A stretch of DNA of 64,000 nucleotides from Pseudomonas tumuqii (GTDB lineage Bacteria > Pseudomonadota > Gammaproteobacteria > Pseudomonadales > Pseudomonadaceae). The position numbers and the translations under genes were made by a program. Positions 4,207 through 55,346 of the stretch are shown here, piece after piece (the stretch's first letter is position 1; the number at the start of each line of letters is the position of its first letter). The stretch lies in assembly GCF_013184545.1 (NCBI RefSeq), contig NZ_JAAOJA010000001.1:434001-498000 (forward strand). The letters are read 5' to 3'. Under the pieces are notes generated by a model. The model searched no databases and was not told where the DNA came from. It saw nothing but the letters and a program-made list of their open reading frames with translations.

Positions 4207-4236
4207 CATGTGAATAAACCGAGCGCGAGAGGGAAC

Positions 4237-4644: not shown

Positions 4645-4646
4645 CC

Positions 4647-6804: not shown

Positions 6805-6835
6805 GTGCAGTGCATAGACGCTTAGGAGAAGGATA

Positions 6836-10964: not shown

Positions 10965-11039
10965 CATGGATGGGCGTTTGCAGGGGAGGGAGAGGGCGGT
11001 CCGTGCGTGCCATAAGAAGACATCTATGGAGTGGATGCG

Positions 11040-11513: not shown

Positions 11514-11971
11514 GAGCCTATCGCCCGGTCGCCCAGCGCGGCGCCACGCTGATCGAAGTGCTCATCGCCATCATCGTCCTCGCCATCGGCTTGCTGGGGC
11601 TGGCCCTGCTGCAGATCACCAGCGTGCAGAGTAACCACAGCGCCTATTACCGATCGCAAGTGACCATACTCGCCAGCGACCTCGCCGACCGCATGCGGGC
11701 AAACCGTACGGCGGCGCTGGGCAGCGCCTACGTATTCGACTTTCCAACCTCATCCAGCAGCAACTCGGTGAGTGGCACGCAAGCGCAGAAAGACAAGGCC
11801 GAATGGCTGAATGCGCTGGCCCAGACCCTGCCGGAAGGCACCGGCAAGGTCGAAAAGACGGGCGCGCTGGTGACCATTTCCGTGCGCTGGAACGACAATC
11901 GCGGGCGGATCAAGACAGTCGATAGCAGCGACAGCGGCATTGAAACCTTCGTCTACCGGACTGAAATATGA
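11510..11971 (+). CDS. pilV: PilV minor pilin (set 2)
   Basis: 153 residues. MRAYRPVAQRG leader, then ATLIEVLIAIIVLAIGLLGL, the PilV/GspI helix. The body includes YYRSQVTILASDLADRMRANR, a PilV hallmark. Start and stop both overlap neighbours by four bases (ATGA), so translation is coupled through the operon. It is similar in layout to set 1 PilV but shorter and clearly diverged. Confidence 0.9.
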   Translation: MRAYRPVAQRGATLIEVLIAIIVLAIGLLGLALLQITSVQSNHSAYYRSQVTILASDLADRMRANRTAALGSAYVFDFPTSSSSNSVSGTQAQKDKAEWLNALAQTLPEGTGKVEKTGALVTISVRWNDNRGRIKTVDSSDSGIETFVYRTEI

Positions 11972-12969
11972 CCCGTACCTCGATGCACCGGCAGAAAGGT
12001 CTTTCGCTCGTCGAACTGTTGATCGCCATGACCCTCAGCTTGTTGCTGATGGGTGGGGTATTGCAGATCTTTCTGGCGAGCAAGCAAACCTACAGTGCTA
12101 ATACCGCACTTTCCCGCGTGCAGGAAAGCGGTCGCTTCGCCATGGAATTTCTAACCAGTGACATTCGCAATGCCGGGTACAAGGGCGAGTGCATAACGCC
12201 ACTCAATAACCTGCTCAATGAGAGCAGTGCCAGCTACAGCGATGACTTGTTCGATCTGAGCCAGGCCCTGAGCGGTCGAGCTAACGCATCACCCTCATGG
12301 GTAGCCAATCGCAGCGCTGGCGACGTGATTCACGTCAAATATGCGGCCAGTCTTGCGGGGGTGACGGCTAGTGGCAATACCCCGGCCACTGCCAACACCA
12401 TCAGCCTGACCGCTGCCAGTGGTGTTGCCCAGGGCACGATCATCATCGCCTCCGCCCCCCTGGGCTGCGACCTGTTTCAAAATCGCAGTAATGCCAATGC
12501 GCAAAACCTGACCCGCGGCAGCACGGGGTCGGGCTCGCCCGGCAACAAGAATCCCGCCAGCAACCCCTTCAGTCATGCCTACGATGCCGCCATGGACATT
12601 CTCAAACTGCAGAGTGCCACTTACTACATCGGCAATGACGTCAATAGCCGCCCCGCGCTGCGCCGGATCAGTTTTTCGACTGGGGTTGCCGTCGATGAAG
12701 TGCTGATCGAAGGGGTCGAGAATATGCAGATCCTTTATGGCATCGCTGGCGCCAATAAGCAGGTTAGCAATTATGTGTCGGCGGCTAGTGTCGCCGACTG
12801 GGACGATGTCGTTTCTGTTCGCGTCTATCTGTTGGTTGTCGGTGCTGAAACCAATGTGACTCCAGAAAATCAAGTCATCGATTTTAATGGAGCAGCCGTG
12901 ACCATTGGGAATCGTCGTCTTGCGCAAGTGTTCTCGAGCACCATCGGAATCCGTAACCGCCTGCCATGA
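11968..12969 (+). CDS. pilW: PilW minor pilin (set 2)
   Basis: 333 residues. MTRTSMHRQKG leader, LSLVELLIAMTLSLLLMGGV helix with Glu5, then the SGRFAMEFLTSDIRNAGYKGEC region typical of PilW (split here at the family motif). It is part of the PilV-W-X/FimU complex that primes pilus assembly and carries PilY1. Both ends overlap the adjacent genes. Confidence 0.9.
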   Translation: MTRTSMHRQKGLSLVELLIAMTLSLLLMGGVLQIFLASKQTYSANTALSRVQESGRFAMEFLTSDIRNAGYKGECITPLNNLLNESSASYSDDLFDLSQALSGRANASPSWVANRSAGDVIHVKYAASLAGVTASGNTPATANTISLTAASGVAQGTIIIASAPLGCDLFQNRSNANAQNLTRGSTGSGSPGNKNPASNPFSHAYDAAMDILKLQSATYYIGNDVNSRPALRRISFSTGVAVDEVLIEGVENMQILYGIAGANKQVSNYVSAASVADWDDVVSVRVYLLVVGAETNVTPENQVIDFNGAAVTIGNRRLAQVFSSTIGIRNRLP

Positions 12970-13439
12970 GTAGACCCATGAACGTAGTGCCCATAAATAA
13001 CCAGCGCGGGGCGATTCTGATCATCGCCATGGTCATGCTGTTATTGCTGACGATCATCGGCTTGAGCAGCATGCGTGGAACATCGCTGCAAGAAAGCATG
13101 GCCGGCAATATACGCGACAGTAGTCTCGCCCTTCAGGCCGCCGAAGCGGCGTTGCGCAAGGGCGAAGGGGTCGTCAACGAAAAATTCCTGGGCGATACCC
13201 TGGGTACCCTCGATGCCGCGCCGCTCACCGGCACTTACTCAGGCTTTCCAGGCGTTGCGACGCTACCCACCTATCGCATCACGATGCTGGCCAAGCTGCG
13301 CACCAGCACCGAACTGGGGATGCCAGATGAGGGCGCCCTTACGCGGGTAGAGGCGGATGGTTATGGCATGGCGCTCAACTCCGACAGTGGCGCGGCCTCC
13401 CACGTCGAGCTGCGCTCTATTTTCCTGGTCGAACAATGA
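12966..13439 (+). CDS. pilX: PilX minor pilin (set 2)
   Basis: 157 residues. N-terminus NNQRGAILIIAMVMLLLLTI lacks Glu5, as in other PilX/GspK-type subunits. SLQESMAGNIRDSSLALQAA matches the PilX N-domain. It overlaps pilW by four bases. The pilY1 start lies either at its stop codon or 41 bases on. Confidence 0.88.
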   Translation: MSRPMNVVPINNQRGAILIIAMVMLLLLTIIGLSSMRGTSLQESMAGNIRDSSLALQAAEAALRKGEGVVNEKFLGDTLGTLDAAPLTGTYSGFPGVATLPTYRITMLAKLRTSTELGMPDEGALTRVEADGYGMALNSDSGAASHVELRSIFLVEQ

Positions 13440-13480
13440 ATAACCAACCGCTCGATAAGTGCTCATGGGGAGTCATAGCG

Positions 13481-16400
13481 ATGGACAGCTTCGCCCGCCG
13501 ATACAAGCCGCTGCGCACGGGTTTGGCCTTCATGATGTCGCTGGCCATCGCGCTCGCCGCGACTCCGGCCCACTCGGATGTCTCCCAGTCGCCCCTGTTG
13601 CTGGGCGGCGGCAACGTGCCGGGCAACTTGGCATTGGTGCCTTCGGTCGAATGGCCGACGATTATCAGCATGGCCAACCTGGGCAACTATTCGGTCAGTA
13701 ATAAATATGTCGGTTATTTTGATGCCGACAAATGCTACGACTATAGCCACGACGCGACGAACAGTGACCGGCGCAACAGTCACTTCTATCCGACCGGCAT
13801 AACCAATAGCCGTACCTGCGCCGGGAATTTATGGAGCGGCAACTTCCTTAACTGGGCGGCGACCCAGACCATCGACCCTTTCCGCAGTGCCTTGACCGGC
13901 GGCTATCGGGTCAGGGATACACCCAGCGAAACCTGGCTGGAAAAAGCCAGGCACTCAGGGCAGAACAATAGCGGGGCACGGGGTATTACCGGCAGTAGCA
14001 CCATCGGCAATGCAACCCCGGCCAACTGGAGTGAATTTAATACGCAGATTGCCGGCTTTGGTAATCGCCTGCGGTTCACCATGAATGGCGACTGGGGTGG
14101 AACAGTCAGAGACTATACGTCGTCGACCAATCTTTCCGGCCACGAGGATAGAGTCTATGAAGTCTATATGCGGGTTAAGGTGTGCGACCCTGGTGTCGGG
14201 CTGGAAGATAACTGCGAAAGATACAGTCAGGGCTACAAGCCCGAAGGACTCATTCAGCAATACGCCAGTGACATCCGCTATAGCGTTTTCGGCTACCTGA
14301 ACGATCACGACATACTTCGAGATGGCGGGGTATTACGGGCCAAGCAGAAGTTTGTCGGCCAGACCATCCGTGCCCCCGGGGTTGCCGGCAATCAAAGCAA
14401 CCCGGCCAGTGAGTGGGATGCGCTGACGGGGGTGTTTGTCCGTAATCCCGACTCCGCGGATGCCTCCGCAACCAATGCCGCCATCCTTGACAGTGGCGTC
14501 ATCAATTACCTGAACAAGTTTGGTCAGATGACCAGCAAGGGTCACAAGTCCTATGATCCCGTGAGCGAGCTGTTCTATACCTCGCTGCGCTACTTCAAGA
14601 ACCAGGGCAATGTCTCCGCCTATTCTACGATCGGCGGCGATGCGACCAGCCGCTACGAACTGGCCGATGGCTTTCCGGTCATCACCAGCTGGGGTGACCC
14701 CATTCAGTATGCCTGCCAGAAGAACGTGATATTGGGCATCGGCGACACCAATACACACCGCGACAAGAACCTGCCCGGCAATAGCAATACCTCCGAAGAG
14801 CCGGCGGTGCCCAGTGAAGTCAGCGCAGACACTACGGTCAATGTCGTCACCGCAACGCAAAAAGTGGCCGCTCTCGAAGGCATCACCATCAATACCCCGT
14901 TTACCGGCCGCAATAACTCGGCCTACATGGCAGGCCTTGCCTACGATGCCCACACCAAGGATTTGCGTGCCGATGTATCCGGCAAGCAAACCGTCTCTAC
15001 CTACTGGGTCGATGTTCGCGAGAACGAGTCGCTGGCCGGAAAAGCCCGCAACCAGTACTGGCTGGCCGCCAAGTACGGTGGTTTCAAGGTGCCTGAAGGT
15101 TTTGGTGATCCTTACGCGCGCAGTTCGGCATTGCCCGAAGAATGGTGGCGCACCACCACAGACACGCTCACCACAGGCGATCCGCGGCCCGATAACTTCT
15201 ACGTTGCGAGCGATGCCGCCAAGATGATCGAGAGCCTGGAGCTGGCTTTCGCGCAAATCGCCAACGAAGTGCAAAGCACCACGGCTTCACTGGCGACCAA
15301 CTCGACCCGCTTGAATACCGATACGGCAGTCTTTCAGTCGCTGCTCGACAGTCGGCGTTGGAGTGGCGACCTGCTGGCAAAACGGATAGGCGCCAATGGC
15401 GTAGTGGCGGTCGAAGCCGCCTGGAGTGCCGCTGTTGCGCTGGATGGCCTGAGCAATGTCGCCAGCCGGAAAATCTTTAGCAACACGCCGCTTGCCGAAG
15501 ACTCGGCCAATGGTCCGCTCCGCTCGACCAGCGGTATCGACTTCACCTGGAGCGATCTCGGTACTGCGCAGCGCACCCTGCTCACCAAGACCGGAGAGAC
15601 CGACACCGCCATGGCGGAGAGTCGCCTGGCCTTTTTGCGTGGCGATCGATCGCTGGAAATCTCGGATGCCAACCGCACCCAGCCCTTTCGTCAACGCAAC
15701 AGTCGGCTGGGCGACATAGTCAACTCGGATCCGCAGTTCATCCATAAACAGGACTTCGGTTACTCTCGGCTGGGCTGGAACAATGGTGCCGTGGGCGTGG
15801 CCTATAGCGCGTTCCGCGCCTCTTCGGCCTATCAAAATCGCACGCCGATGGTGGTTGGCGGCGCCAACGACGGCATGTTGCATGGCTTCGATGCCAGAAT
15901 CAGCGAAGTATCTGCGACAAACGGCGGCAAGGAACTCTTTGCCTATGTGCCCAGCAATGTTTTCGGCAACCTCATCAACCTGACTGACCCGGCCTACGCC
16001 CATCGCTACTACGTCGATGGCACCCCTCGCGTTTCCGACGTCTGGCTGGGCTCCGGCACAGGCTGGCGGACCATGGTCGTAGGCAGCACCGGCGCCGGCG
16101 GCAAGAGCGTCTTCGCCCTGGATGTCACTGATCCTGGCAACATGTCCAGCGACAGCGTGATGTGGGAGTTCAGCCACTCGAGAATGGGCTACACCATTGG
16201 CCAGCCGGCACTGGTAGCGCTGCCTAACAACCGCTTCGGGGTGATCGTCAGCAGCGGTTACCACGATAGCGTGCAGGCCGATGGCAAGGTCTGGATCCTG
16301 GATGCCACCGATGGCAGCGTGATCAAGGAGTTCACCCTGGCCACTAGCGGCGGCCTGGGCTCGCCACTGGTCTCCGATACAGACGCGAATCAGATTGCCG

Positions 16401-17248
16401 ATCGGCTCTATGTTGCCGACACGCTGGGCAACCTTTGGCGGCTGGACCTGAGTGGCAGCAACACTGCCACCTGGGGTATTCCCGGGTCACTCAACGCTAA
16501 CCCGCTGTTTATCGCCAAGGATGACTCGGGTGCGCGGCAAGCCATCACCGCGCCACTGTCATCCGCCTTCAACGACAAACAGCAGCACATGGTGTTTTTC
16601 GGCACCGGCAGCTTCTACCGCACCGGCGACAATGAGATTGCGGAGGATCCGGCGATAGATAGCTTCTACGGCATCATCGACAACGGACTGCTGATCGACG
16701 GGCGCGACGGGTTGCGCGAACAGCGGATCCTGCTCGAGGCCACCCTCGGCAGTGGGGACAGGGGCCGCGCCATTACGCAGAACGCTATTCAGGCTGGCGA
16801 CAAGGGCTGGTATCTGGATCTCGCCTGGGAAACGGGCGAGGATGCCACCGGGGCACAGGGCGAGCGCGTCATCGCCAAGGCTACCTTGCGCAACGATCGG
16901 GTGATTTTCACCACCATGACCCCGTCGGCGGATCCTTGCGCATTCGGCGGAACCAGCTGGATCATGGCCGTTAATCTGTCCAGCGGCGGCCGCCTTAACT
17001 ATGTGTACTTCGATGCCGACGGCGACGACGACCTGGATGGCGATGACACAACCACCATCGTCGACGAGGGCGACGACATCCCCTGGTCGGGCATCTCCGA
17101 CGTGGAGGACGGCGTGAGCAAGGGCGTTACCTCGCTGTATAAATGGCTGTGCTTCGCCGGCTCCAGTGGTGGCGCGCCCAGGTGTATCCCGCAGCCCGAC
17201 TCACAGCGGTTTGGCCGCCAATCCTGGCATGAAGTGGGGGCCAACTGA
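13481..17248 (+). CDS. pilY1: PilY1-family tip adhesin (set 2, ~1255 aa)
   Basis: A large secreted protein with a signal peptide (cleavage near AHS|DVS). The start at 13481 has GGGGAG eight bases upstream and gives a normal signal peptide; an ATG at 13436, overlapping the pilX stop, would add 15 residues. The MIDAS position of PilY1 is degenerate: where P. aeruginosa PilY1 reads DDSGS, this protein reads VPSVEW. The C-terminal half is a beta-propeller. Near residue 1176 an Asp-rich EF-hand-like loop ([12 protein letters not shown]) probably binds calcium, as shown for P. aeruginosa PilY1. The C-terminus ends GRQSWHE-like, usual for the family. No pilY2 follows. Confidence 0.93.
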
Positions 17249-17718
17249 TGACTCGATACTGCGGCAAGGCATCCCGAGCGGGTTTTCATGGTGCATGGCG
17301 TAATGGCGGCGGTTTTACCCTGATCGAGTTGATGATAGTGATCGTCGTCATCGGCATCCTGGCTGCCATCGCCTATCCGGCCTATGACGAGTACACCCGC
17401 AAGGCCCGGCGTGCGGATGCGCAGACCGCGCTGCTGGAACTGGCGCAATTCATGGAGCGCCACTACACCGCCAACGGCAAGTACCTGACCGCGGCCAACG
17501 CGGCCCCCGTCCTGCCTTTCACGGAGACGCCCAAGGACGGTACCAGCAAATATTACGACCTGAGCTTTGCCAGCGCTCCGACAGCCAGCAGCTACACACT
17601 GCGCGCGGTACCCAAGGGCGTCATGGCGAACGATACCTGCGGCACCATGACTCTTGGCAATACCGGGGCCAAAGGGCAGGCTGCGGGTGCCAGCCTCGCG
17701 GCGTGCTGGCGGCGCTAG
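17248..17718 (+). CDS. pilE: PilE minor pilin (set 2)
   Basis: 156 residues. A long 22-residue leader ends in Gly before [20 protein letters not shown]; no other in-frame ATG exists. The globular domain keeps the C-terminal disulfide pair (NDTCG...AACWRR), unlike the set 1 PilE. The start overlaps the pilY1 stop (TGATG). It is the last gene of the canonical operon and is followed by a strong terminator. Confidence 0.9.
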
Positions 17719-17823
17719 CTTGCGCGATCCCTGCGGCGATTAGCGGATCGCCGCGCAAGCATGTTGGTAGAAATCGACCGGGTTTATGACGTATAACGGG
17801 CCGCCTTTGCGGCCCGTTTTTTT
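17718..17823 (+). terminator. Nested hairpin followed by rho-independent terminator after pilE
   Basis: 17718-17760 can fold with outer arms GCTTGCGCG/CGCGCAAGC and inner arms GCGGCGAT/ATCGCCGC (alternative foldings share bases). The clear terminator is 17796-17823: ACGGGCCGC, a CTTT loop, GCGGCCCGT and a run of seven T's. thiO begins ten bases after the T-run, so it is probably expressed from its own or read-through transcription. Confidence 0.9.
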
Positions 17824-39008: not shown

Positions 39009-39551
39009 ATGACCGCTTATCGTCGGGATAGCACGCCGGGCGCCACCTGGTTCTTCACCCTCAACCTGGCCGACCGCCAACGCGGTTTGCTTACCACCCA
39101 GGTCGACCTGCTGCGCGCCAGCTTCGCCAGGGTGATGTGCCAGCATCCCTGGCGTATCGAAGCCATCGTCATCCTTCCCGATCACCTGCACGCCCTCTGT
39201 ACCTTGCCGCCCGGCGATGCCGACTTTGCCGTGCGCTGGCGCCTGATAAAAACCGGCTTCTCCCGCGCATTGCCTGGCGGTGAAAAGATTTGCGCCAGCC
39301 GCCGGGGCAGAGGCGAGCGCAGCATCTGGCAACGGCGTTATTGGGAGCACCGCATCCGCGATGACCAGGACTTCGCCCGGCATGTCGACTACATCCACCA
39401 CAACCCACGCAAACACGGCCACGTACAACGAGTAGCCGATTGGCCGTGGTCGTCCTTTCACCGCTACGTGCAGGCGGGTTTATTGCCCGAAGATTGGGCC
39501 GGAGGCGATGAGCCGGACAGCGAATACGGCGAGCAGCAATGGGCGGATTGA
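39009..39551 (+). CDS. REP-associated tyrosine transposase (RAYT, Y1/TnpA_REP family)
   Basis: 180 residues, full length for the family. The HUH motif is ILPDHLHAL (His59 and His61), and the candidate catalytic tyrosine is Tyr128 in VDYIHHNPRKHG. A Trp/Arg-rich stretch (SIWQRRYWEHRI) precedes it, as in RAYTs. SD AAGGA lies upstream of ATG 39009. Known: RAYTs are single-copy domesticated relatives of IS200/IS605 transposases that cleave and spread the REP palindromes flanking them. Here the flanking family A REPs also occur throughout the window. All motifs look intact. Confidence 0.93.
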   Translation: MTAYRRDSTPGATWFFTLNLADRQRGLLTTQVDLLRASFARVMCQHPWRIEAIVILPDHLHALCTLPPGDADFAVRWRLIKTGFSRALPGGEKICASRRGRGERSIWQRRYWEHRIRDDQDFARHVDYIHHNPRKHGHVQRVADWPWSSFHRYVQAGLLPEDWAGGDEPDSEYGEQQWAD

Positions 39552-39589: not shown

Positions 39590-39918
39590 GTAGGATGTGG
39601 CGGGCCGCGGCGTTTTTGTAGGATGCGGTTGAGCGAAGCGATACCCATCGAGCGGTTGCCCATCCGCCGGATTTTATTGATTGGCCGCAGATCGTTGTGA
39701 TGGGTATCGCTGCGCTCAACACCATCCTACGGGTTGGCAGTCGCAGGACTTTTGTAGGATGTGGCGGACCGCGTAGGTTTGAGCACAGCGATACCCATCG
39801 AGCGGTTGCCCAGCCGGCGGGTTTTATTGATTGGCCGAAGATCGTCGTGATGGGTATCGCTTCGCTCAACGCCATCCTACGGGATCACACTATCCTGCGG
39901 GGCCCGCACCATCCTACG
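39590..39918. repeat. REP family A cluster with ~150-bp tandem period
   Basis: At least four units (39618-39649, 39699-39730, 39754-39799, 39849-39880) plus partial heads at 39590 and 39907. Equivalent points repeat at about 150 bp (for example 39699 and 39849). Each repeat carries the spacer TTTTATTGATTGGCCG. The last head overlaps the pilD stop codon. Confidence 0.9.
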
Positions 39919-40786
39919 AGCCAAACCCGGCAAACTGCAGATAGCTTCCGGTGATCTGGCCGCCCCAGAGCAGGGCGATCCAGCCGGCGATGGCGAGGTA
40001 GGGGCCGAACGGGATCGGCGTGCTGGTTTCGGCGTTGTGCAGGCGCAGCATGATCAGCCCGAGCACGGCGCCGACCAGCGACGACAGCAGGATGGTCAGC
40101 GGCAGCACTTGCCAGCCGCCCCAGGCGCCGAGCATGGCCAGCAGCTTGAAGTCGCCATAGCCCATGCCTTCCTTGCCGGTCACCAGCTTGAACAGCCAGT
40201 ACACCGACCACAGGCTCAGGTAGCCGCCGATCGCGCCCCACAGTGCGGCTTCCAGGCTGGTGAACAGGCCGAAGTAGTTAGCGATCAGCCCCAGCCACAG
40301 CAACGGCAGCACCAGGGCGTCCGGCAGCAGTTGATGGTCGGCGTCGATCAGGCTCATCGCCAACAGGCCCCAGGTCAGCAGCAGGATGCCGGCGGTCTGC
40401 CAGGTAAAGCCGAAGTGCCAGGCCACATACGCCGACAGCAAGCCGCAGGCCAATTCCACCAGCGGGTAGCGCAGGCTGATCGGCACCTTGCAGCTGGAGC
40501 ATTTGCCACGCAGGAACAGGTAGCTGATGACCGGGATATTCTCCCAGGGGCGAATCTCGTGGCCGCAGTGCGGGCAGCGCGAATTGGGCAGGATCAGGTT
40601 GAACAGCGGCGCGGCCGGCGGCTCCGGCAGTTCGAGGATTTCCCGGGCCTGGGCCTGCCAGTCGCGCTGCATCATCACCGGCAGGCGATACACCAGCACA
40701 TTGAGAAAGCTGCCGATCAACAACCCCAGCACCAGGCAGATAAACGTAAAGGCCGGCAAGTTGCCGGCCAGGAACTCTAGGGTCAT
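39914..40786 (-). CDS. pilD: Prepilin peptidase / N-methyltransferase PilD
   Basis: 290 residues, full length. The N-terminal cytoplasmic loop holds two CxxC pairs (CPHC and CSSC). The two catalytic Asp motifs of type IV prepilin peptidases are present (LIDADHQLLPD and GMGYGDFKLL). About eight membrane helices. It should process the pilins, pseudopilins and FimT encoded here. Its TAG stop lies within a REP head (GTAG). Ends the pilB-pilC-pilD operon. Confidence 0.96.
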   Translation of the reverse strand: MTLEFLAGNLPAFTFICLVLGLLIGSFLNVLVYRLPVMMQRDWQAQAREILELPEPPAAPLFNLILPNSRCPHCGHEIRPWENIPVISYLFLRGKCSSCKVPISLRYPLVELACGLLSAYVAWHFGFTWQTAGILLLTWGLLAMSLIDADHQLLPDALVLPLLWLGLIANYFGLFTSLEAALWGAIGGYLSLWSVYWLFKLVTGKEGMGYGDFKLLAMLGAWGGWQVLPLTILLSSLVGAVLGLIMLRLHNAETSTPIPFGPYLAIAGWIALLWGGQITGSYLQFAGFGS

Positions 40787-40789
40787 GAG

Positions 40790-42010
40790 TTAGCCAACCA
40801 CCGCGCCCAACTGGAAGATCGGCAGGTACATGGCAATGATCAAGCCGCCGACCAGTACGCCGATAACCGACATGATCATCGGTTCCATCAGGGTGGTCAG
40901 GTTGTCGACGGCGTTGTCCACCTCGTCCTCGTAATAGCCGGCGACCTTGTCCAGCATCTCGTCCAGCGAGCCGGATTCCTCGCCGATGGCGGTCATCTGG
41001 ATGGCCATGCTCGGGAAGATCCCGGTGCTGCGCATCGAGAAGTTCAACTGGGTGCCAGACGACACGTCATTGCGGATCTTGTGCACGGCATTGCGGAACA
41101 CCACGTTGCCGGTCGCCCCGGCCACCGAGTCGAGCGCCTCGACCAGAGGCACGCCGGCGGCGAAGGTGGTGGCCAGGGTGCGCGCGTAACGCGCCACCAC
41201 CGCTTTGTACAGGATGTCGCCGATAATTGGCGCCTTGAGCAGGGTGCGGTCGAGGAAGTCGCGGAATTTCTCCGAGCGCTTGAACACCCATTTAAACGTG
41301 AAGGCGCTGGCGAAGATGGCGAAGACGAAGATGAACCACCATTCCTGCAGCCCACGCGACATGTTCACCACCACCTGGGTGAATGCCGGCAGTTCGGCGC
41401 CGAAGCCCTGGAACACGCTCTCGAATTGCGGCACCACCTTGATCAGCAGGACCGCCGTGACGATCACCGCCACCACGATCACCGCGATCGGGTAGGTCAT
41501 GGCCTTCTTGATCTTGGCTTTGAGCGCCTCGGTCTTTTCCTTGTAGGTAGCGATGCGGTCGAGCAGGGTTTCCAGCGCACCGGCTTGCTCGCCCGAGTCG
41601 ACCAGGTTGCAATACAGGTCGTCGAAGTACAGCGGTTTCTTGCGTAGCGAGGCGGCGAAGCTGTTGCCCGCGGCGACCTCCTGCTTGACCTCCTCGATCA
41701 GCTTGCGCATGTTCGGGTTGTCGAAGCCCTCGCCGATGATGTCGAACGACTGCAGCAGCGGCACCCCGGCCTTCATCATGGTGGCCATCTGCCGGGTGAA
41801 CAGGGCGATGTCCAGGGGTTTGATCTTCTTGCCGGCGCTGAACAGCGACTTGGGTTTCTTGCGCACCTTGAGCGGGTTGATACCCTGCTTGCGCAACTGG
41901 GCCTTGATCAGAGCAGGTGACTGCCCGATCAGCTCGCCCTTCATCTTGCCGCCTTTCTTGTCGGTGCCTTCCCAGAGGAAAACACTGCTTGCTAATGCTT
42001 TGGCCGCCAT
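40790..42010 (-). CDS. pilC: Type IV pilus inner-membrane platform protein PilC
   Basis: 406 residues. Two GspF-type repeats with FTRQMATMMKAGVPLLQSFD and the later YARTLATTFAAGVPLVEALD. Three to four membrane helices including AVIVVAVIVTAVLLIKVV and the C-terminal SVIGVLVGGLIIAMYLPI. Couples the PilB motor to pilin insertion. Three bases separate it from each neighbour. Confidence 0.96.
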   Translation of the reverse strand: MAAKALASSVFLWEGTDKKGGKMKGELIGQSPALIKAQLRKQGINPLKVRKKPKSLFSAGKKIKPLDIALFTRQMATMMKAGVPLLQSFDIIGEGFDNPNMRKLIEEVKQEVAAGNSFAASLRKKPLYFDDLYCNLVDSGEQAGALETLLDRIATYKEKTEALKAKIKKAMTYPIAVIVVAVIVTAVLLIKVVPQFESVFQGFGAELPAFTQVVVNMSRGLQEWWFIFVFAIFASAFTFKWVFKRSEKFRDFLDRTLLKAPIIGDILYKAVVARYARTLATTFAAGVPLVEALDSVAGATGNVVFRNAVHKIRNDVSSGTQLNFSMRSTGIFPSMAIQMTAIGEESGSLDEMLDKVAGYYEDEVDNAVDNLTTLMEPMIMSVIGVLVGGLIIAMYLPIFQLGAVVG

Positions 42011-42013
42011 CGG

Positions 42014-43717
42014 TTAGTCCTTTGTCACGCGGTTCACTTCTTCGAGGCTGGTGATGCCCTGCATGGCCTTCAGCAGGGCCGAGGTGCGCAGGTCATTGAA
42101 GCCGTCTTTGCGCATTTGCGCGGAGATATCAATGGAATTGCCTTCCTCCATGATAATCCGTTGCAATGCAGGCGTGTTTTTAACCACTTCATAGATTCCG
42201 ATACGGCCCTTGTAACCGCCGTTGCAATTTTCGCAGCCGACCGGGCGATAAATCTTGAAGCTGCCGATCTGGTTTTCCGGGAAGCCTTCTTCCAATAGCG
42301 CCTCGCGCGGGATCTGCACTTCCTTCTTACAATAGCCGCAGAGCTTGCGCGCCAGGCGCTGGGCGATGATCAGGCTGACCGAGGTGGCGATGTTGAACGA
42401 GGGCACGCCCATGTTGCGCAGGCGGGTCAGGGTTTCCGCGGCGCTGTTGGTGTGCAGGGTCGACATCACCATGTGCCCGGTCTGCGCCGCCTTGATCGCG
42501 ATCGAGGCGGTATCCAGGTCGCGGATCTCGCCGACCATGATGATGTCCGGGTCCTGGCGCAGGAAGGCGCGCAGCGCGGCGGTAAAATCCATGCCCTGCT
42601 TGGGGTTGACGTTGACCTGGTTGATGCCTTCCAGGTTGATCTCCACCGGGTCTTCGGCGGTGGAGATATTCACGTCCACGGTATTGAGGATGTTCAGGCC
42701 GGTGTACAGCGACACCGTTTTGCCCGAGCCGGTCGGCCCGGTCACCAGGATCATGCCTTGCGGCTGCTTGAGCGCAGCCATGTACAGGTCTTTCTGCCTG
42801 GGCTCGTAGCCCAGCGCATCGATGCCCATCTGTGCGCTGGAGGGGTCGAGAATCCGCATCACGATCTTCTCGCCCCACAGGGTCGGGCAGGTGCTGACGC
42901 GAAAGTCGATCGACTTTGTCTTCGAGATGCGCATCTTGATCCGCCCGTCCTGCGGCTTGCGCCGTTCGGAAATATCCAGCGCCGCCATCACCTTGAGGCG
43001 CGCGGCGATGCGTGGCGCCAACTGGATCGGCGGCCGGGCGATCTCCTGCAGAATGCCGTCGGTACGAAAACGCACCCGGTAGACCTTCTCGTACGGCTCG
43101 AAGTGCAGGTCCGAGGAGCCGCCCCTGATCGCATCCAGCAGCATCTTGTTGACGAAGCGCACCACCGGCGCGTCGTCGGCGCTTTCGCCGGCGACGCCGT
43201 CGTTCTTGTTCTCGTCCACCGCCTGCACGTCCATGCCGTCGAGGTCGACGTCGGCCAGGTCTTCCATGCCGCTGTTGGCCGCCTCGAAGAACTTGTCGAT
43301 GGCCTCGCCGAGCTTGTCGTCCTCCACCAGCAGGGCTTCGGTACTCAGGCCGGTGCTGAACTGGATGTCGGTGACCGCCTGGTGATTGGTCGGGTCGGAG
43401 AGGGCGACGAACAGCTTGTTGCCGCGCCGGTACAGCGGCAGCACGCGGTGCTGGCGACACAGCTTCTCGCTGACCAGGTCGTGCGGCTGGCTGTCCTTGT
43501 CGATGGCCTTGAGGTCGCACAACGGCACGCCGAACTGCTCGGAGGCGATTTCCGCCACCGCCCGGCTGCTGGCCAGCTTGTTCTGCACCAGGTAAGACAC
43601 CAGCGGGATCTTGTTGCGTAGGGCCTGGGCCTGGGCCTGGGCCGCGGCGCGTTCGTCCAGCAAGTCGGCGTTGACCAGTTGCCGAGCCAGGCCGGTCAGA
43701 TTGGGAGAGTCGTTCAT
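42014..43717 (-). CDS. pilB: Type IV pilus extension ATPase PilB
   Basis: 567 residues. N-terminal MshEN/GspE-like domain, Walker A GPTGSGKTVSLY near residue 325, Asp box and Walker B region (DPDIIMVGEIRD). A tetra-Cys zinc site lies near residue 460 (CGYCKKE...CENCNGGYKGR). Powers pilus extension. Divergent from pilA; the 234-bp gap contains the RpoN promoter. Confidence 0.97.
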   Translation of the reverse strand: MNDSPNLTGLARQLVNADLLDERAAAQAQAQALRNKIPLVSYLVQNKLASSRAVAEIASEQFGVPLCDLKAIDKDSQPHDLVSEKLCRQHRVLPLYRRGNKLFVALSDPTNHQAVTDIQFSTGLSTEALLVEDDKLGEAIDKFFEAANSGMEDLADVDLDGMDVQAVDENKNDGVAGESADDAPVVRFVNKMLLDAIRGGSSDLHFEPYEKVYRVRFRTDGILQEIARPPIQLAPRIAARLKVMAALDISERRKPQDGRIKMRISKTKSIDFRVSTCPTLWGEKIVMRILDPSSAQMGIDALGYEPRQKDLYMAALKQPQGMILVTGPTGSGKTVSLYTGLNILNTVDVNISTAEDPVEINLEGINQVNVNPKQGMDFTAALRAFLRQDPDIIMVGEIRDLDTASIAIKAAQTGHMVMSTLHTNSAAETLTRLRNMGVPSFNIATSVSLIIAQRLARKLCGYCKKEVQIPREALLEEGFPENQIGSFKIYRPVGCENCNGGYKGRIGIYEVVKNTPALQRIIMEEGNSIDISAQMRKDGFNDLRTSALLKAMQGITSLEEVNRVTKD

Positions 43718-43799: not shown

Positions 43800-43905
43800 C
43801 TGACAAAAAACGTCAGTTGCTGCCGTGTTGGGAGCGGGCGGTTAGCGGTGTGTAGCGGGAAATCCCTTGGGCTGCGCGCTCTGCCGAGTTGGCACGCCAT
43901 CTGCT
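43800..43905 (+). promoter_or_regulatory. RpoN-dependent pilA promoter with upstream palindrome
   Basis: TTGGCACG-CCAT-CTGCT puts GG at 43891-43892 and GC at 43903-43904, the exact 10-base GG-N10-GC spacing of a sigma-54 promoter. One base (CTGC for TTGC) departs from consensus. About 85-105 bases upstream CTGAC-N7-GTCAG (43800-43804, 43812-43816) is a candidate activator site in the range used by PilR. The predicted start of transcription is near 43916, 36 bases before the ATG. Confidence 0.75.
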
Positions 43906-43951: not shown

Positions 43952-44137
43952 ATGAAGTCTCTCAAGAAGCAAAAAGGCTTTACCCTGATCGAGTTGATGA
44001 TCGTAATTGCGATCATCGGTATTCTCGCCGCCATCGCCATCCCGCAGTTCAACGAGTATCGCCAGCGTGCGAATGACACCTCCGCTGTTGCCGATGCCAA
44101 AAATGGCATTACCGCAATCATCTCTTCGCTGCGCTGA
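43952..44137 (+). CDS. pilA: Very short type IV major-type pilin (PilA-N-like, 61 aa)
   Basis: Precursor of 61 residues: leader MKSLKKQKG, then [33 protein letters not shown] and stop at ...ISSLR. The mature form is 52 residues, essentially only the alpha1 helix of a T4a pilin. Glu5 is present. Aromatic residues are Phe1, Phe24 and Tyr27 only. It occupies the normal pilA place (divergent from pilBCD, RpoN promoter). The stop is followed 10 bases later by a new SD (CAGGAGAT) and a separate gene with its own Sec signal, so the shortness is not a simple frameshift. It most resembles the Geobacter PilA-N form. Confidence 0.9.
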
Positions 44138-44160
44138 TCGGTTTTTCAGGAGATATTAAT

Positions 44161-44577
44161 ATGAAAAAGATTACTCTGTTGTTGGCAGGTTTGATGGTTT
44201 CGGGTATGGCTTCTGCCGTACAGCTGACTGGTACTGGTGGTGTGGTTCAACGCGTCGGTGATTGCGAGACTCTTTTGAACGAGGACGTGCGCATCAACCT
44301 GACCACTGGTGTAGAGGCTGGTGTTAATTGCAGTGCTACCCGCATTGCAATTGCTACTTGCCATACCGCCGGACGCCAGGTTGGCCGCAGCGTCGAGGTT
44401 GTTACTGCTTGCGATGCCGTTGCAGACCCTGCCTGCGAAGATACGGTGGAAGTCCAGACTGTGACCGGTCCGGCAATGGCCGTTGCGAATACAAACCGCG
44501 GCACCGTGATCAGCGGTTTTCCGGGTGGCCTCTGCACCGCTGCCACTGCCGATACCTTTGCAACCGCTCAGCCGTAA
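44161..44577 (+). CDS. Secreted Cys-rich protein, candidate detached pilin globular domain (PilA-C-like)
   Basis: 138 residues. Sec signal peptide MKKITLLLAGLMVSGMASA (cleavage after Ala19), no prepilin motif. The mature ~119 residues contain six Cys (three possible disulfides), many Thr/Val/Gly and no membrane segment, as expected of a secreted beta-rich domain. It is 23 bases after the short pilA with its own strong SD. I do not recognise a named family. The role as partner of the 61-residue pilin is inferred from position, complementarity and the Geobacter PilA-N/PilA-C precedent. Confidence 0.8.
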   Translation: MKKITLLLAGLMVSGMASAVQLTGTGGVVQRVGDCETLLNEDVRINLTTGVEAGVNCSATRIAIATCHTAGRQVGRSVEVVTACDAVADPACEDTVEVQTVTGPAMAVANTNRGTVISGFPGGLCTAATADTFATAQP

Positions 44578-44599
44578 CAGCTCTATGTGTTAGCCACAT

Positions 44600-44631
44600 C
44601 AAAGCGTCCTCGCCCGGCGTGGGGCGCTTTG
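44600..44631 (+). terminator. Probable terminator after the split-pilin pair
   Basis: CAAAGCGTCC pairs with GGGCGCTTTG (one G-T pair) around a GC-rich loop, followed by GAATTT. The T-run is weak, so some read-through into the ABC genes is possible. Confidence 0.65.
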
Positions 44632-44685
44632 AATTTAAGTATTGCTTGACGTCTTGGTCGGTACCTTATCGCGGTATGTTGGGTC

Positions 44686-44853: not shown

Positions 44854-45663
44854 ATGCCTATATTTCGTGATTTTCTGACTGCACTGCGCCTGGCGTTCAA
44901 GGCGAACTTCGTCTGGATGGCTGCTGGCGTCCTGCTGGTGGTGGCGCTGGCCACCCTGTTGTCCGCCTATTTCGGTGGTCGCCAGCCGACGACCGTGGCG
45001 CTGGATGTGGGGCTCTCGACCATTCGCTTGCTGGTGCCGCTGCTGATCGTGCTGCTGGTACAGGAGCTGCTGTCCCGCGAGTTCGACAAGCGCTATTACC
45101 TCAACTCGCTGACGTACCCGCGTGGGCGGCGCAGCCTGTTGCTCGGTCGTTTTGCCGCGCTGCTGGCAATGCTGCTGGGCCTGTTGCTGGTCTTGGGGCT
45201 GTTGCAGGTGTTGCTGGTGGGTTTGATTGGCGACGCGCACCCCCAGGCCACCCCAGTGGCCATGGGGCAGCCCTATCTGATCGTGATCGCCTTTATGGCC
45301 CTCGACCTGCTGGTGCTGGCGGCGCTGGCGACCCTGCTGGCGGTAGTCGCCTCGACCCCGAGCTTCGTCCTGCTCGGCACCTTCGGCTTTATGCTGGTGG
45401 CGCGTTCCTACGGCGCCATCGTCGAGCTGCTCAGCCGTGGTGCCGAGCTGGTCGGCAATGCCGAGGGCTATCGCGCCAGCCTCGGGGTATTGGGTTACCT
45501 GCTACCGGATCTTGGCGCGCTGGATCTGCGCATGCTGGCGCTCTACGGCCAGCCGGAATTTCTCCCCGCCGACTGGCCCTGGTTGCTCCTGAGTAGTCTG
45601 GCCTACGCCTGCGCCCTGCTGGCGCTGGCGGTTTGGGCGCTGCAACGCAAGCGTTTCGCCTGA
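44854..45663 (+). CDS. ABC-2-type transporter permease linked to pilA (PilI-like?)
   Basis: 269 residues with about six hydrophobic helices (WMAAGVLLVVALATLLSAYF, LLVPLLIVLLVQELL and others), an ABC-2 permease layout with no substrate motif. The region LLSREFDKRYYLNSLTYPRG resembles a cytoplasmic coupling loop. First gene of a tightly packed trio (1-base gap, then a 4-base overlap) whose third gene is the ATPase. In Myxococcus the pilA locus carries pilG-pilH-pilI, an ABC transporter needed for pilus assembly; homology to PilI is a proposal from context. Confidence 0.8.
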   Translation: MPIFRDFLTALRLAFKANFVWMAAGVLLVVALATLLSAYFGGRQPTTVALDVGLSTIRLLVPLLIVLLVQELLSREFDKRYYLNSLTYPRGRRSLLLGRFAALLAMLLGLLLVLGLLQVLLVGLIGDAHPQATPVAMGQPYLIVIAFMALDLLVLAALATLLAVVASTPSFVLLGTFGFMLVARSYGAIVELLSRGAELVGNAEGYRASLGVLGYLLPDLGALDLRMLALYGQPEFLPADWPWLLLSSLAYACALLALAVWALQRKRFA

Positions 45664-45664
45664 T

Positions 45665-46501
45665 ATGCGCAGCCGCTACGCTCCGCTATTGCTGGCGCTG
45701 CTCGGTTTCGCCGTGTTCTCCGCCGCCTCGCAGTGGCGCGCCCATACCCCTGCGCCTGTGGCTCCGGTGATTGAAGGCCGGGTGGTCATCGCCGCGCCGG
45801 TGTTGCTGGTGCTGTTCGGCGGCGACCGCTTTCTCGCGGCCAGCCTGGAAACCATGCGCCTGGCCGCCACCGGGTCGGGCTGGGGGCAGGCGGATACCGG
45901 CTATCTGGTCCGCGCCCAGCAGGTGGTGGCCGAGCTCAACCCCTGCCATGAAGACAACTATTACCTGGCCAGCGGCCTGCTCACCTGGGGTGGGGCGGAC
46001 CGCGAGGGCGCCGAGGTGTTGCGCCGGGCCATGCAGTGTCGCTTCTGGGATGAGTTGCCGGCGTTTTTCTATGGCTTCAATCAGGCGTTCTTCAACAAGG
46101 ATATTGCCGAGGCCAGCCGTGCGCTGGAGTTGGCGGCGCAGCGTTCTACCGCTAACTCAGCCGGTTTCCGTAAGCTGGCGGTGATGCTGCAGGCGGAAAC
46201 CTTCGCCGATGAACAGTTGGCCCTGGACTACCTGATTCAACAACGCGATGCCGCCAGCGATCCCAAGCTGCGCGGCATGCTCGACAAACGCGTCGTTCGG
46301 TTGCAAGGTCTGGTTGCCCTGCGCGAGGCGCAGCGCCGCTTCGAGGCGAAAAACGGTGCGCTGGTAAGGCTCGAACAACTGGTCGAAGCCGGGCTGTTGC
46401 CGGCCTTGCCGGACGACCCGCTCAGGCTCGGCTACGAGTTGCGCGATGGTCGCATCATCCTGAAGAAACTGGAGATCGCCGGCATGGAGGATCAGTCGTG
46501 A
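45665..46501 (+). CDS. TPR-like membrane-anchored protein within the pilA-linked ABC cluster
   Basis: 278 residues. An N-terminal hydrophobic segment (YAPLLLALLGFAVFSAA) acts as anchor or signal. A helical periplasmic-type body follows, with repeats reminiscent of TPRs (YYLASGLLTWGG, AEVLRRAMQCRFW, AFFYGFNQAFFNKD). Not recognised as a named family. One base after the permease and overlapping the ATPase start (GTGA), so it is probably an accessory subunit. It could correspond to Myxococcus PilG, which I cannot test here. Confidence 0.7.
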   Translation: MRSRYAPLLLALLGFAVFSAASQWRAHTPAPVAPVIEGRVVIAAPVLLVLFGGDRFLAASLETMRLAATGSGWGQADTGYLVRAQQVVAELNPCHEDNYYLASGLLTWGGADREGAEVLRRAMQCRFWDELPAFFYGFNQAFFNKDIAEASRALELAAQRSTANSAGFRKLAVMLQAETFADEQLALDYLIQQRDAASDPKLRGMLDKRVVRLQGLVALREAQRRFEAKNGALVRLEQLVEAGLLPALPDDPLRLGYELRDGRIILKKLEIAGMEDQS

Positions 46502-47451
46502 GTGCTGCACTGGAATTTCAGGGCGTCAGCCAGACCTTTCGCGTCAAGGGCAAGGCGGTGCAGGCGCTGCGCGATGTCAGCTTCAGCCTGGCCGAGGGCG
46601 AGGTGTTCGGCTTCGTCGGGCCCAACGGCGCCGGCAAGTCGACCACCATCAAGGTCATGCTCGACATCATCAACGACTACCAGGGCCGGGTCAGCCTGTA
46701 CGGCACCTGTGCGCGCCAGGCCGAGGCGCGCCAGGGCGTGGCCTACGTGCCGGAAGCCCCGGCGCTGTACGAGCAGTTCACCGCGATGGAAATCCTGCGC
46801 ATGGCCTTGTCCATGTACGGCATCCGCCGGACGGACGAGAAGGCCTGGTGCCTGAACTGGCTGGAGCGCTTCTCTATCGGCGCGTCCGCCAACCGGCGCA
46901 TCCGCGAGCTGTCCAAGGGCACGGTGCAGCGCGTGGCGCTGGCCCATGCCATGGTCGTGCAGCCCAGATTGCTGGTGCTCGACGAGCCGCTGTCCGGTCT
47001 CGACCCGGTCGGGCGCAAGGATGTGGTGGATATCCTCAACGAGTACAAGCAGCAGGGCGGGGCGATCTTCTTCACCTCCCATGTGCTGCACGACGTCGAA
47101 CGCATCGCCGACCGTTTCGGCTTCATCAACAAGGGCGAACTGCTGACCGTGCGCTCGCCGCGCGAACTCGCCGCCGAGCGCGCCGATTACCTGCTGGTGC
47201 GCTTCAACGCCGCACACGCCATCGCCCCCGGCGCCCGCCAATTGCGCGACGGCGAGTTCGAATGCGAACTGACCCAGGCCGCGCTGCCCGCCTTCATCGC
47301 CCAACTCAACCAGAGCGGCGGCCACCTGCTGTCGGTGAAACCGGCGGTGTCGCTCGAAAGCGTGTTCTTCAAAATCCTCGACGACGCCGCCCGGAAACCC
47401 CAGCCCGCCCCAACCCCCGCGCCATCCCCACCAAACAAAATCCCGGCCTGA
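46498..47451 (+). CDS. ABC transporter ATP-binding protein linked to pilA (PilH-like?)
   Basis: 317 residues. Walker A GPNGAGKST, a signature replaced by LSKGTVQRVALA (the usual LSGGQ reads LSKGT), Walker B LLVLDEPLSGLDP and H-loop FFTSHVLHD. GTG start with GGAGGA just upstream, overlapping the TPR-like gene. A C-terminal Pro-rich tail (PQPAPTPAPSPP) is unusual. ABC-2 type exporter ATPase. The cluster interrupts the normal pilA-nadC neighbourhood. Confidence 0.88.
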   Translation: MSAALEFQGVSQTFRVKGKAVQALRDVSFSLAEGEVFGFVGPNGAGKSTTIKVMLDIINDYQGRVSLYGTCARQAEARQGVAYVPEAPALYEQFTAMEILRMALSMYGIRRTDEKAWCLNWLERFSIGASANRRIRELSKGTVQRVALAHAMVVQPRLLVLDEPLSGLDPVGRKDVVDILNEYKQQGGAIFFTSHVLHDVERIADRFGFINKGELLTVRSPRELAAERADYLLVRFNAAHAIAPGARQLRDGEFECELTQAALPAFIAQLNQSGGHLLSVKPAVSLESVFFKILDDAARKPQPAPTPAPSPPNKIPA

Positions 47452-47819: not shown

Positions 47820-48047
47820 ATGGCAAGCGACTCGAGAATTACCCTGGAGCCCGGTAAGCGTGGCGGCAAGCCTTGCGTTCGAGGTCTGCGCATCAGTGTT
47901 GAGGATGTACTCGGTTGGCTTGCTGGGGGGATGTCCCAAGAGGAGATTCTGGAGGATTACCCGGAGTTGAGTCGTGAAGACATTCTTGCTTGCCTGGCTT
48001 TTGCTGCCGACCGCCTGAAGCATGCGGCTTGGATCAGGGCTGCATGA
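47820..48047 (+). CDS. DUF433 antitoxin-like protein
   Basis: 75 residues. RITLEPGKRGGKPCVRGLRI is the DUF433 N-terminal signature; the rest is a winged/helical DNA-binding-like fold (VEDVLGWLAGGMSQEEILED). The stop overlaps the start of the DUF5615 gene (ATGA), the usual antitoxin-toxin arrangement. Probably an autoregulatory antitoxin. Confidence 0.88.
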   Translation: MASDSRITLEPGKRGGKPCVRGLRISVEDVLGWLAGGMSQEEILEDYPELSREDILACLAFAADRLKHAAWIRAA

Positions 48048-48376
48048 AGTTATTGCTGGATGAAAATTTGTCGCGCAGATTGCTGCCGGCGTTGCAGGCG
48101 GACTTCCCTGGCTCTTCCCAAGTTGCACTGCTGGGGCTGGAACAAGCCGATGACCGCGGCATATGGGAATACGCGAAGGTGCACGATTATGTGATCGTCA
48201 GCAAAGATGAAGACTTTCATAATCTGCAAACCGCGTGGGGTTACCCACCGAAGATCATTCTACTTGCCCTTGGTAATAGCTCTAACCAAGCGGTTCTGCA
48301 TGCGCTGACGACTTCTGCCGTGCAGCTGCGAGAGAGTCTGGCCGATGAGCGAATTGGACTGATCGAAATTGTCTGA
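48044..48376 (+). CDS. DUF5615 PIN-like toxin protein
   Basis: 110 residues. MKLLLDENLSRRLLP carries the first acidic PIN-like residue (Asp5, Glu6). VIVSKDEDFHNL carries further acidic residues of the active site. DUF5615 proteins pair with DUF433 as VapBC-like toxin-antitoxin modules; the nuclease function is by family inference. Convergent with nadC. The ATG at 48044 is used because it overlaps the antitoxin stop. Confidence 0.88.
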   Translation: MKLLLDENLSRRLLPALQADFPGSSQVALLGLEQADDRGIWEYAKVHDYVIVSKDEDFHNLQTAWGYPPKIILLALGNSSNQAVLHALTTSAVQLRESLADERIGLIEIV

Positions 48377-52216: not shown

Positions 52217-53462
52217 AAGCGATTTATGCCTGTACCCGCTGGCAGGGCGAATATCGATGATGGGTTACGGCGCCTTTGTTCTGCTGACAGCAGGTCAATT
52301 TGCGGGCGCCTAACCGATCCTACGATCTGTCGCTGCGCTCCGAGCGGATCGCCCCTTGGCCCCGTTGCCTGCCTGCTCTAGAGTGGAGGCTCGTGTGCGA
52401 CACGCATGGTCGTGTTGTGCTTGGTTGGGAGCTTTCCCATGACACCAAAACTCCTTTGTTATCAGAGGGTTGAAGTCAGAATAAGCACAAGAGCCTGGCT
52501 TTGATAGCCTAAAAATGATCCGCTTGCGGAGGTGCGAAACTCTCCGTTTGCGGGGAAATAACGCCTCGAATTCGGCTTTTGCTGGCTAGAATTCGATCAA
52601 AAGCACTATCAAAAGAACAATCTCCGTACTGGAGATTGTTTCAAAATGTATCAAGCTCCCTGGGGATGGAAAACGCCCTCAGGGGCGCAATCCATCCTCT
52701 ACGAAGCCTGGTCATTTTGGCCCCTGCCACCGTCGCGAGACGTGGGAGACCTCTTGTCCAAGCACGGAGCGCAAGCTCCGATTCGTATTGCTCAGCTCCG
52801 CTTGTCCAGGGAGTACCGAGCCTGACATGTACCTGTCAGTTCACTAGGTCGGCATGCGTCGGGGGCCAACCCCGGGGTGTGAAGCCCGATCAACAATGTC
52901 CCCTCTCGCAAGAGAAGCATGTGCCGGCAACGGAGCGTGCGATGCATCCGAATTGCACGGAGGCAGGGGGGCTAGTGACCAAACCCGCATGGCTAACGCA
53001 TGTGAACCGTTGACAGAACCCTCGACACCACTGACGGGCCTACGGCAATTATCGGCCCCAGCCAAAATGGCAATGTAGTCGGTCGGCGCAGTATGAGTAT
53101 GCGCTGCGGTACCACCACTGCTACCGGGGGAAAGACGGAGCCTAAACGGGGAATTGATGCGATTCGGGGAACGTGGCAATCCCGACCACTCGCCTGCCCA
53201 GCAACATCGGGTAGGCAGGCAGACCGCAAGGCGAGCTGATGGGTGTGGGGAATGGGAGGATGCAAGAAGCGAATGGCCGCCTGTAATGGGCGGTATACCG
53301 GGTGAGACATTACCGGCAGGGGATAACTCTGGCTGACGTGCATCTGGTTTACGAGCGCAAAAAGAGCCGCTGATTCCAGCGATAACCAAATGACCCTATG
53401 GGCGAACTGCTGCCCATAGGGGAGTAGTCCGTCCTGAATGTCGTTCATCTCGGGAGGACTGT

Positions 53463-55195
53463 ATGAAAACGCAACCAGCAACATCGGTCGCGTCTGCGCC
53501 CTCCGGCGGAATGACGAACTGGCACGATCTCGATTGGGCCAAAGTTCAGCAATCCGTTCGGAAAACGCAGCTGAAGATTGCGCAGGCAACACGGGACAGT
53601 GACTGGCGCAGGGTTAAACGCCTGCAACGGATGCTGGCTCACTCGTTTTATGGTCGCTGCATGGCTGTAAGGCGAGTCACGGAGAATCGGGGTCGCAAGA
53701 CTCCGGGCGTAGATGGAGAAACCTGGGGTACGCCCCAAGCCAAGTTCCATGCCGTGGGACGTCTGTCGAAAAAAAGAGGCTATCGGCCCAGACCGCTACG
53801 GCGGGTATGGATACCGAAACCTGGCAAGCAGGAGAAACGCCCACTGGGTATCCCGACGATGTTGGATCGGGCCATGCAGGCGCTGTATCTGCAAGCGTTG
53901 GAGCCTGTCGTGGAAAGCGCCAGCGATCCGAAGTCCTATGGATTTCGCCCGGATCGCTCGACGGCTGACGCAATGGTAGAGCTCTTCCACCTGCTGGCGC
54001 CTGAAAGGGCTCCAGTCTGGATTCTGGAGGGCGACATCAAAGGCTTCTTCGACAACATTAACCACGGATGGCTGTGCCGAAATGTCCCGATGGACAGGGC
54101 GGTGCTGCGCAAGTGGTTGAGAGCTGGGGTTATCGACCGGCGACAACTCATGGCTACGGAAGCCGGGACGCCACAGGGCGGGATCATCTCGCCCTGTCTG
54201 GCCAACGCCACCCTCAACGGTCTGGAGACTCAGTTGAAGCGCCATCTGGCGAAGAAGCTGGGGATCAATAAGGCCGCGAAGACCAAGGTGCAATGTGTGC
54301 GTTATGCGGATGACTTTGTGATCCTGGCAGCCTCGAAAGAGCTGCTGGAGGAAGAGATCAAACCCTGGGTGGAGCAATTCCTGTCGGTACGAGGGGTTGC
54401 ACTATCCCAAGAGAAAACGCAAATCACGCACATTTACCAGGGGTTCGATTTTCTGGGGTGGAATTTCAGGAAGTACGTGCCGAAGTCACCACACAGGAAG
54501 GCCAAGCTGCTGATCAAGCCCTCGAAGAAAAACGCCTCGGCGTTCTATCGGAAGGTGAGCGAGATCATTAAAGGCAGCGGGGCTTTGACGCAGGAAGCGT
54601 TGGTCGGCCATCTGAATCCGGTACTGAAGGGGTGGCGCAATACCATTCCCCAGTCGTGGCAAAGAAGACCTTCAGCAAGCTGGATAATCTGATTTTCTGG
54701 CGAATCTGGAGGTGGGCGAAGCGCAGGCATCCGAAGAAGTCGGCTGAATGGATCAGGAATAAATACTTCCGATCCATAGGTAGGCAGAACTGGGTGTTTG
54801 CGTACCCCTACAAGAATGGCAAGGGAGAAAGGCAGTATCGCCAGTTGTACAAACTGGCGGGAACCGCAATCGTGCGCCACAAACGTCTGCCGGGGGATTA
54901 CACCCCCTATGACGCAGAGCACGAACTGAAGTGGGAGGCGTTGAGAGTCCAGCGGATGCAGCACAAGCTGCGTTATCGAGGGCAAATCCTCAGCCTCTTC
55001 CGTAGACAGCGGGGTCTTTGTGCCCTGTGCGGGCAAGCGGTAAGCAAGGGAACTGGCTGGCACGACCATCACGTCATCAGACGTGTAGACGGTGGGCCGG
55101 ATACCTTATGCAACCGTGTGCTGCTCCATCCCAACTGTCATGCGTTGGTGCATAGCCAGCGACAAGAGGTAACTCTACAGTTCAACGGTCTATAG
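53463..55195 (+). pseudogene. ltrA: Intron-encoded reverse transcriptase/maturase-HNH endonuclease, frameshifted
   Basis: The first frame (53463-54692) carries RT domains 0-7 with the catalytic YADD (CVRYADDFVIL) and the start of the maturase X domain. It then runs out of frame after LKGWRN. The continuation is in another frame (to 55195): YHSPVVAKKTFSKLDNLIFW, WRWAKRRHPKKS, then an HNH endonuclease (CALCG...WHDHHVIRR...NCHALVH). The join reads CGCAATACC where CGCAATTACC would keep the frame, so a single T appears lost near 54641. As read, the protein is split and mobility is probably lost unless the deletion is a sequencing error. Confidence 0.88.
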
Positions 55196-55258
55196 CCGTA
55201 GAATCACACGCAACACTCCGTGCGTTGCCGGCCAAGCTACTTGGTTTAACGTAAGCTT

Positions 55259-55293
55259 GAGCCGTGTGCGATGAAAATCGCACGCACGGTTCT
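55259..55293 (+). ncRNA. Group II intron domain V (catalytic hairpin)
   Basis: A 35-nt hairpin: GAGCCGTGTGCGAT, GAAA-type tetraloop, ATCGCACGCACGGTTCT. The AGC triad is at 55260-55262. This is the most conserved part of a group II intron and looks intact, so self-splicing may persist with a helper protein. Confidence 0.9.
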
Positions 55294-55346
55294 AAGGGGG
55301 GGATGGGCCAGTAATGGCCTATCTCTACCCGACTCAAGGAGCCTTT

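Follow-up and report, generated by a model that had tools for sequence, protein, structure and literature searches.

A probable two-gene type IV pilin locus in Pseudomonas tumuqii and its recurrence in related genomes

The 64,000-nucleotide stretch of the Pseudomonas tumuqii genome analysed here (assembly GCF_013184545.1, contig NZ_JAAOJA010000001.1, positions 434,001 to 498,000; hereafter the window) carries, at the pilA place opposite pilB, two genes: a short one for a prepilin consisting of the alpha-1 helix only (the stalk, pilA-N) and, directly behind it, one for a cysteine-rich protein predicted to be secreted (the head, pilA-C). This split pilin locus, first noticed in a reading of the sequence alone, is real, and the two-gene arrangement recurs far beyond chance, in all 27 split loci that we collected. 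We consider it likely that the two genes encode one major type IV pilin as two separate parts, which are polymerised into a single fibre as Geobacter PilA-N and PilA-C are. The observations behind this reading are the gene pair and its recurrence, the lack of the ordinary pilin family in the same genomes, the adjacent pilB, pilC and pilD genes, the presence of PilT-family ATPases and the six head cysteines found in 23 of the 27 loci. The sequence-only reading had proposed a split major pilin of this kind, and it is supported by the recurrence, the missing ordinary pilin and a structural match of the head to Geobacter PilA-C.

The split locus and its recurrence

The stalk gene (43952..44137, plus strand) encodes a class III prepilin of 61 amino acids, which matches the Pfam family N_methyl (3.9e-12) and no head family. 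Its predicted cleavage site, G9/F10, leaves 52 mature residues, among which only F1, F24 and Y27 are aromatic; both points agree with what had been read from the letters. The head gene (44161..44577, plus strand, ATG start) follows after 23 bp, lies in a different reading frame and has its own Shine-Dalgarno sequence, AGGAGA (44148..44153, plus strand). It encodes 138 amino acids, the first of which look by eye like a Sec-type signal peptide cleaved at MKKITLLLAGLMVSGMASA/VQL, so that about 119 mature residues with six cysteines are predicted, and the earlier description of a second gene with its own ribosome-binding site and Sec signal for a Cys-rich secreted protein of this size is upheld. 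The head protein has no match among the Pfam and NCBIfam models, and its closest named relative is found in P. lalucatii (85%). Upstream of the pair, a sigma-54 (RpoN) -24/-12 promoter-like site of the form TGGCAC-N6-TGC, reading TGGCACgccatcTGCT, occupies 43890..43905 on the plus strand and starts 62 bp before the stalk ATG; pilA of P. aeruginosa has a sigma-54 promoter. Downstream of the head gene, a hairpin (44599..44632, plus strand) is a possible terminator, with an 81-nt fold of -27.3 kcal/mol (z -2.1; 7 of 200 shuffles equally good), and a terminator-like scan did not rise above shuffles. Divergent from the pair, on the minus strand, lie genes for the extension ATPase PilB (42014..43717; T2SSE 1e-155, MshEN), the platform protein PilC (40790..42010; T2SSF 3.4e-70) and the prepilin peptidase PilD (39914..40786; Peptidase_A24 and A24_N_bact); a pilA locus opposite pilBCD with an RpoN-like site is what had been claimed.

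With the short pilin as query and a cut-off of E<=1e-20, a search matched 18 of 298 genus genomes, or about 6 in 100, and all 18 loci hold a 61-residue pilin and, just downstream, a protein of 135-160 residues with a signal-like start. The pair is also carried by P. borbori DSM 17834, an environmental type strain. At the level of the order (244 genomes, E<=1e-16) two more genomes were added, G154 and G317. Searching 398 genus genomes with a head profile (A3) gave 23 real matches, 22 of them whole-domain and one, in G154, in two pieces, each with a prepilin of 58-61 residues immediately upstream; this count leaves out 27 of the 50 matching genomes, in which the match was weak (E 0.0005-0.008) and covered the signal-peptide end (25 genomes) or small pieces (2 genomes). 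The match in G154 is circular because the head of that genome (L049) is itself a row of A3, and a second profile, A4, which omits this head, did not match G154. Against 398 phylum genomes, A4 found five: that of the window, G317 and three from a different family, which each have their own short prepilin (61-65 residues) and show no PilB match within the flank examined. The 27 loci represent 26 distinct pairs. In every one the stalk prepilin is 58-65 residues long and the head gene is co-directional at a distance of 11-35 bp, and TGGCAY-N6-TGC precedes the stalk gene in 26, at -61 to -95. Beyond residue 20 the head has six cysteines in 23 loci, eight in three and two in one.

Several variants of the arrangement were observed. 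A second short prepilin (59-65 residues) lies downstream of the head gene, at about 2.02-2.24 kb, in six of 21 loci (L050, L051, L052, L053, L061 and L062), and no second head was seen beside it in a simple open reading frame (ORF) scan. Locus L103 of G317 has one stalk and then two head genes in tandem. In G154 (L049/L070) the 61-residue stalk is followed by a second head type with only two cysteines, which P0137, a protein annotated in a strain that its source names Pseudomonas stutzeri, resembles by eye. A fused 'Rosetta' form of the head, for which 7996 candidates were scored, was not present among 120 of 193 relatives listed, the longest of those listed having 163 residues. Carriage on plasmids was examined by a distant search, whose four matches were short and confined to the prepilin helix.

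Likeness to Geobacter and divergence of stalk and head

The best sequence matches of the stalk in the PDB are 9egp_A, 7tgg_A and 2m7g_A ('Geopilin domain 1 protein'), that is, the stalk is alike in sequence to Geobacter PilA-N. The head cannot be recognised as Geobacter PilA-C by significant sequence similarity; PilA-C ranks first by structure for the head models, which are mostly beta with a C-terminal helix and suggest that the head has the PilA-C fold. A match between a head profile and Geobacter 9egp_B (E 0.0055) included the signal peptide and was lost with a smaller profile from which signal peptides had been removed, and shuffle tests of the sequence likeness gave between 0 of 1997 and 15 of 2000. 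Foldseek returned no significant match in the PDB for either model; in a second look the G. sulfurreducens PilA-C chains 6VK9 and 7TGG were absent, which is uninformative either way.

Geobacter PilA-N/PilA-C (geopilin domains 1 and 2; PDB 6VK9, 7TGG and 9EGP) has the same order of genes, with an alpha-1-only prepilin first and a Sec-type head behind it. Passages of the literature describe the Geobacter stick and head as two separate proteins (PMC10191384, a review), present in the pilus in equal parts (PMC12954529, a review), and mention two export routes, Pil-type and Sec-type, in Geobacteraceae (PMC3543383). The sizes differ, with 52 stalk residues here against 61 in Geobacter and about 119 head residues against 104 (sizes as excerpted from PMC11046646). 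The host phylum differs as well, and the Pseudomonas proteins are set apart by their three stalk aromatics and the six cysteines of most heads. Geobacter PilA-N has more aromatic residues than three. A conductive pilus (e-pili, with an aromatic-rich PilA-N) was rejected for the window given only F1, F24 and Y27 in the mature stalk, and the earlier remark that a conductive-wire reading is unsupported stands.

In the mechanism that we propose, stalk and head would be co-transcribed from the predicted sigma-54 promoter. The 52-residue stalk would be made as a prepilin, inserted through its N-terminal helix and cut by PilD at the predicted site, and the head of about 119 residues would be exported by Sec with predicted cleavage of its signal. 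The head cysteines would form disulfides in the periplasm, and the head would dock on the stalk 1:1 on the periplasmic side of the inner membrane, replacing the covalent link, after which PilB and PilC would polymerise the stalk-head complex into one fibre coated by heads. Stalk and head alleles would move and change together.

Mean identity over 325 locus pairs is 77% for the stalk and 33% for the head. For eight chosen locus pairs the nonsynonymous divergence (dN) is 0-0.056 in the stalk and 0.19-0.55 in the head; the ratio of dN to synonymous divergence (dS) is about 0.05-0.19 for the head in six pairs (dS >1.5), dS being saturated in the other two, and both genes are under purifying selection. 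Across 23 loci the identities of stalk and head are correlated (rho 0.74, 0 of 2000 permutations), whereas the stalk follows PilB weakly (rho 0.30, 23 of 2000) and the head hardly at all (rho 0.13, 207 of 2000). Identities of a permease encoded downstream also track those of stalk and head (rho 0.62 and 0.52, 0 of 2000 each), and linkage alone could therefore explain the stalk-head correlation. Strains whose PilB proteins are 96-98% alike can have heads just 26-37% alike, and such divergent heads beside a near-identical PilB fit an exchange of the cassette. In a PilB tree, 24 split rows and 19 full-length rows are separated by one branch, the full-length rows being the best scorers for the pilin family PF00114 only, so that the tree supports no inference on the number of split origins.

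A head so much more variable than the stalk (33% against 77%), encoded by a separate gene with a Sec-type signal, could also be expected if the short pilin formed a thin fibre by itself and the secreted protein had an accessory role, be it as an adhesin, as an escort for the stalk in the periplasm or as cargo pushed out by the pilus, and the second stalks without a visible second head in six of 21 loci point the same way; we nevertheless regard this explanation as improbable, because the structure of the head matches that of the Geobacter head subunit, a head gene lies tightly behind the stalk gene in 27 of 27 loci, and Geobacter pili of the same kind, according to a review (PMC12954529), hold PilA-N and PilA-C equally.

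The missing ordinary pilin and a linked transporter

A PF00114 pilin is present in 250 of the 298 genus genomes. It is over the cut-off in none of the 18 split genomes, three of which have sub-cut-off matches (E 0.14-0.92), and in the genome of the window there is no match at E<=10. A second full-length pilA elsewhere, for which a check had been proposed at the outset, was accordingly not found as a PF00114 pilin, and the split pair stands where a full-length major pilin would otherwise be. A further 30 of the 298 genomes have neither a PF00114 match nor the short pilin at E<=1e-20, one of them being G154, which is split at the laxer cut-off. The full-length PilA of Pseudomonas occupies the same place opposite pilB in 19 of 20 full-length loci and has the same N-terminal helix, but it is one polypeptide with the PF00114 head domain on the same chain, which the present locus lacks. 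These 20 loci are the best PF00114 scorers of the 250, and L091 among them is also without a PilB match.

The permease that follows the head gene belongs to a cluster resembling an ATP-binding cassette (ABC) transporter. It comprises an ABC-2 type permease (44854..45663, plus strand; PF12730 1.4e-8), a 278-residue protein without a Pfam match (45665..46501, plus strand; 91% identical to its positional counterpart in P. borbori, L022) and an ABC transporter ATPase (46498..47451, plus strand; PF00005 2.9e-28). A tblastn match to the permease follows the head gene in each of the 27 split loci and was found in none of the 20 full-length loci, each with about 1.5 kb beyond pilA. Seven of the 27 split genomes were tested for the ATPase, and in all seven its best match falls 1.8-2.2 kb beyond the head gene. 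The 278-residue protein was seen only in the window and in P. borbori. In Myxococcus, PilG, PilH and PilI are ABC-like proteins of the pil cluster (PMC3724824 and PMC6060248), described in the former as essential to translocate pilin across the inner membrane. The linked transporter may act like PilGHI. Unlike the split pair, the pilin of M. xanthus is one large protein.

The adjoining transporter, together with two full-length pilins of the ComP_DUS family in the genome, might also suggest that another pilin (for example the ComP/PilE-like ones near 4.2 or 17.3 kb in the window) builds the main pili and that the pair serves a secondary system, for instance a competence pilus. We find this very unlikely. 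The pair occupies the pilA place with its sigma-54-like site, the genome is without a PF00114 pilin, and both ComP_DUS pilins are positioned in minor-pilin clusters. Of the 19 N_methyl matches in the genome, the stalk among them, 18 are over the cut-off, and the eight other ORFs tested comprise these two ComP_DUS pilins, three GspH-like and two GspG proteins and one without a head family over the cut-off. PilT-family ATPases over the cut-off number four.

An ordinary pilin split by a frameshift, a stop or an assembly error, for which no supporting point was found, has a negligible probability: the genes lie in different frames, the second has a full signal peptide and Shine-Dalgarno sequence, both are under purifying selection, and the same split in 27 genomes rules out a sequencing error. 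Since the frames differ and the split is conserved, the single fused ORF that had been named as a possible refutation is ruled out too.

Elsewhere in the window, two adjoining minor-pilin clusters (3805-10027 and 10040-17750) each carry GspH-like and ComP/PilE-like prepilins and one very long protein, of 1063 residues without an NCBIfam match in one case and of 1270 residues, PilC/PilY1-like, in the other. Parts of a group II intron lie at 52821-55333, with a reverse transcriptase/maturase ORF at 53463-54692. By eye, a 180-residue ORF (39009-39551) resembles a REP-associated tyrosine transposase and lies near short segments that seemingly recur at 39.5-39.9 and 47.2-47.5 kb, and two small ORFs of 75 and 128 residues (47820-48376) resemble a DUF433/DUF5615 toxin-antitoxin pair.

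Earlier descriptions and biological meaning

The remark that no described case was known in Pseudomonas proved too strong: a passage of Shu et al. 2016 (PMC5174107) already includes Pseudomonas in a list of taxa with truncated pilins. The species and the Pseudomonas partner protein are unnamed in that passage, which gives partners (GSU1497-like) for Geobacter only and ties the truncation to electron transfer. In the open-licence literature searched we found no recognisable description of the Pseudomonas PilA-C head family or of a replacement of PilA.

Tentatively, and with less confidence than we place in the two-piece pilin itself, we suggest that the split may free the surface of the fibre from its core. 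A near-fixed stalk would be combined with fast-changing, disulfide-stapled heads from a shared pool, in some cases with spare stalks, and a dedicated ABC transporter would escort the parts. The system would then be a device for changing the pilus coat (as phage receptor or in adhesion), not for electron transport, and would have arisen or spread outside the metal reducers.

In the literature searched, nearly all discussion of two-protein pilins concerns Geobacter and the dispute over its nanowires. As the same architecture exists in Pseudomonas, where the stalk is not rich in aromatic residues, the reason for splitting a pilin can be tested apart from conductivity. Further, in a minority of Pseudomonas species, about 6 in 100 among those sampled, the pilus surface is probably the product of a gene annotated in databases as a 'hypothetical protein', which is relevant to twitching, transformation and pilus phages in those species.
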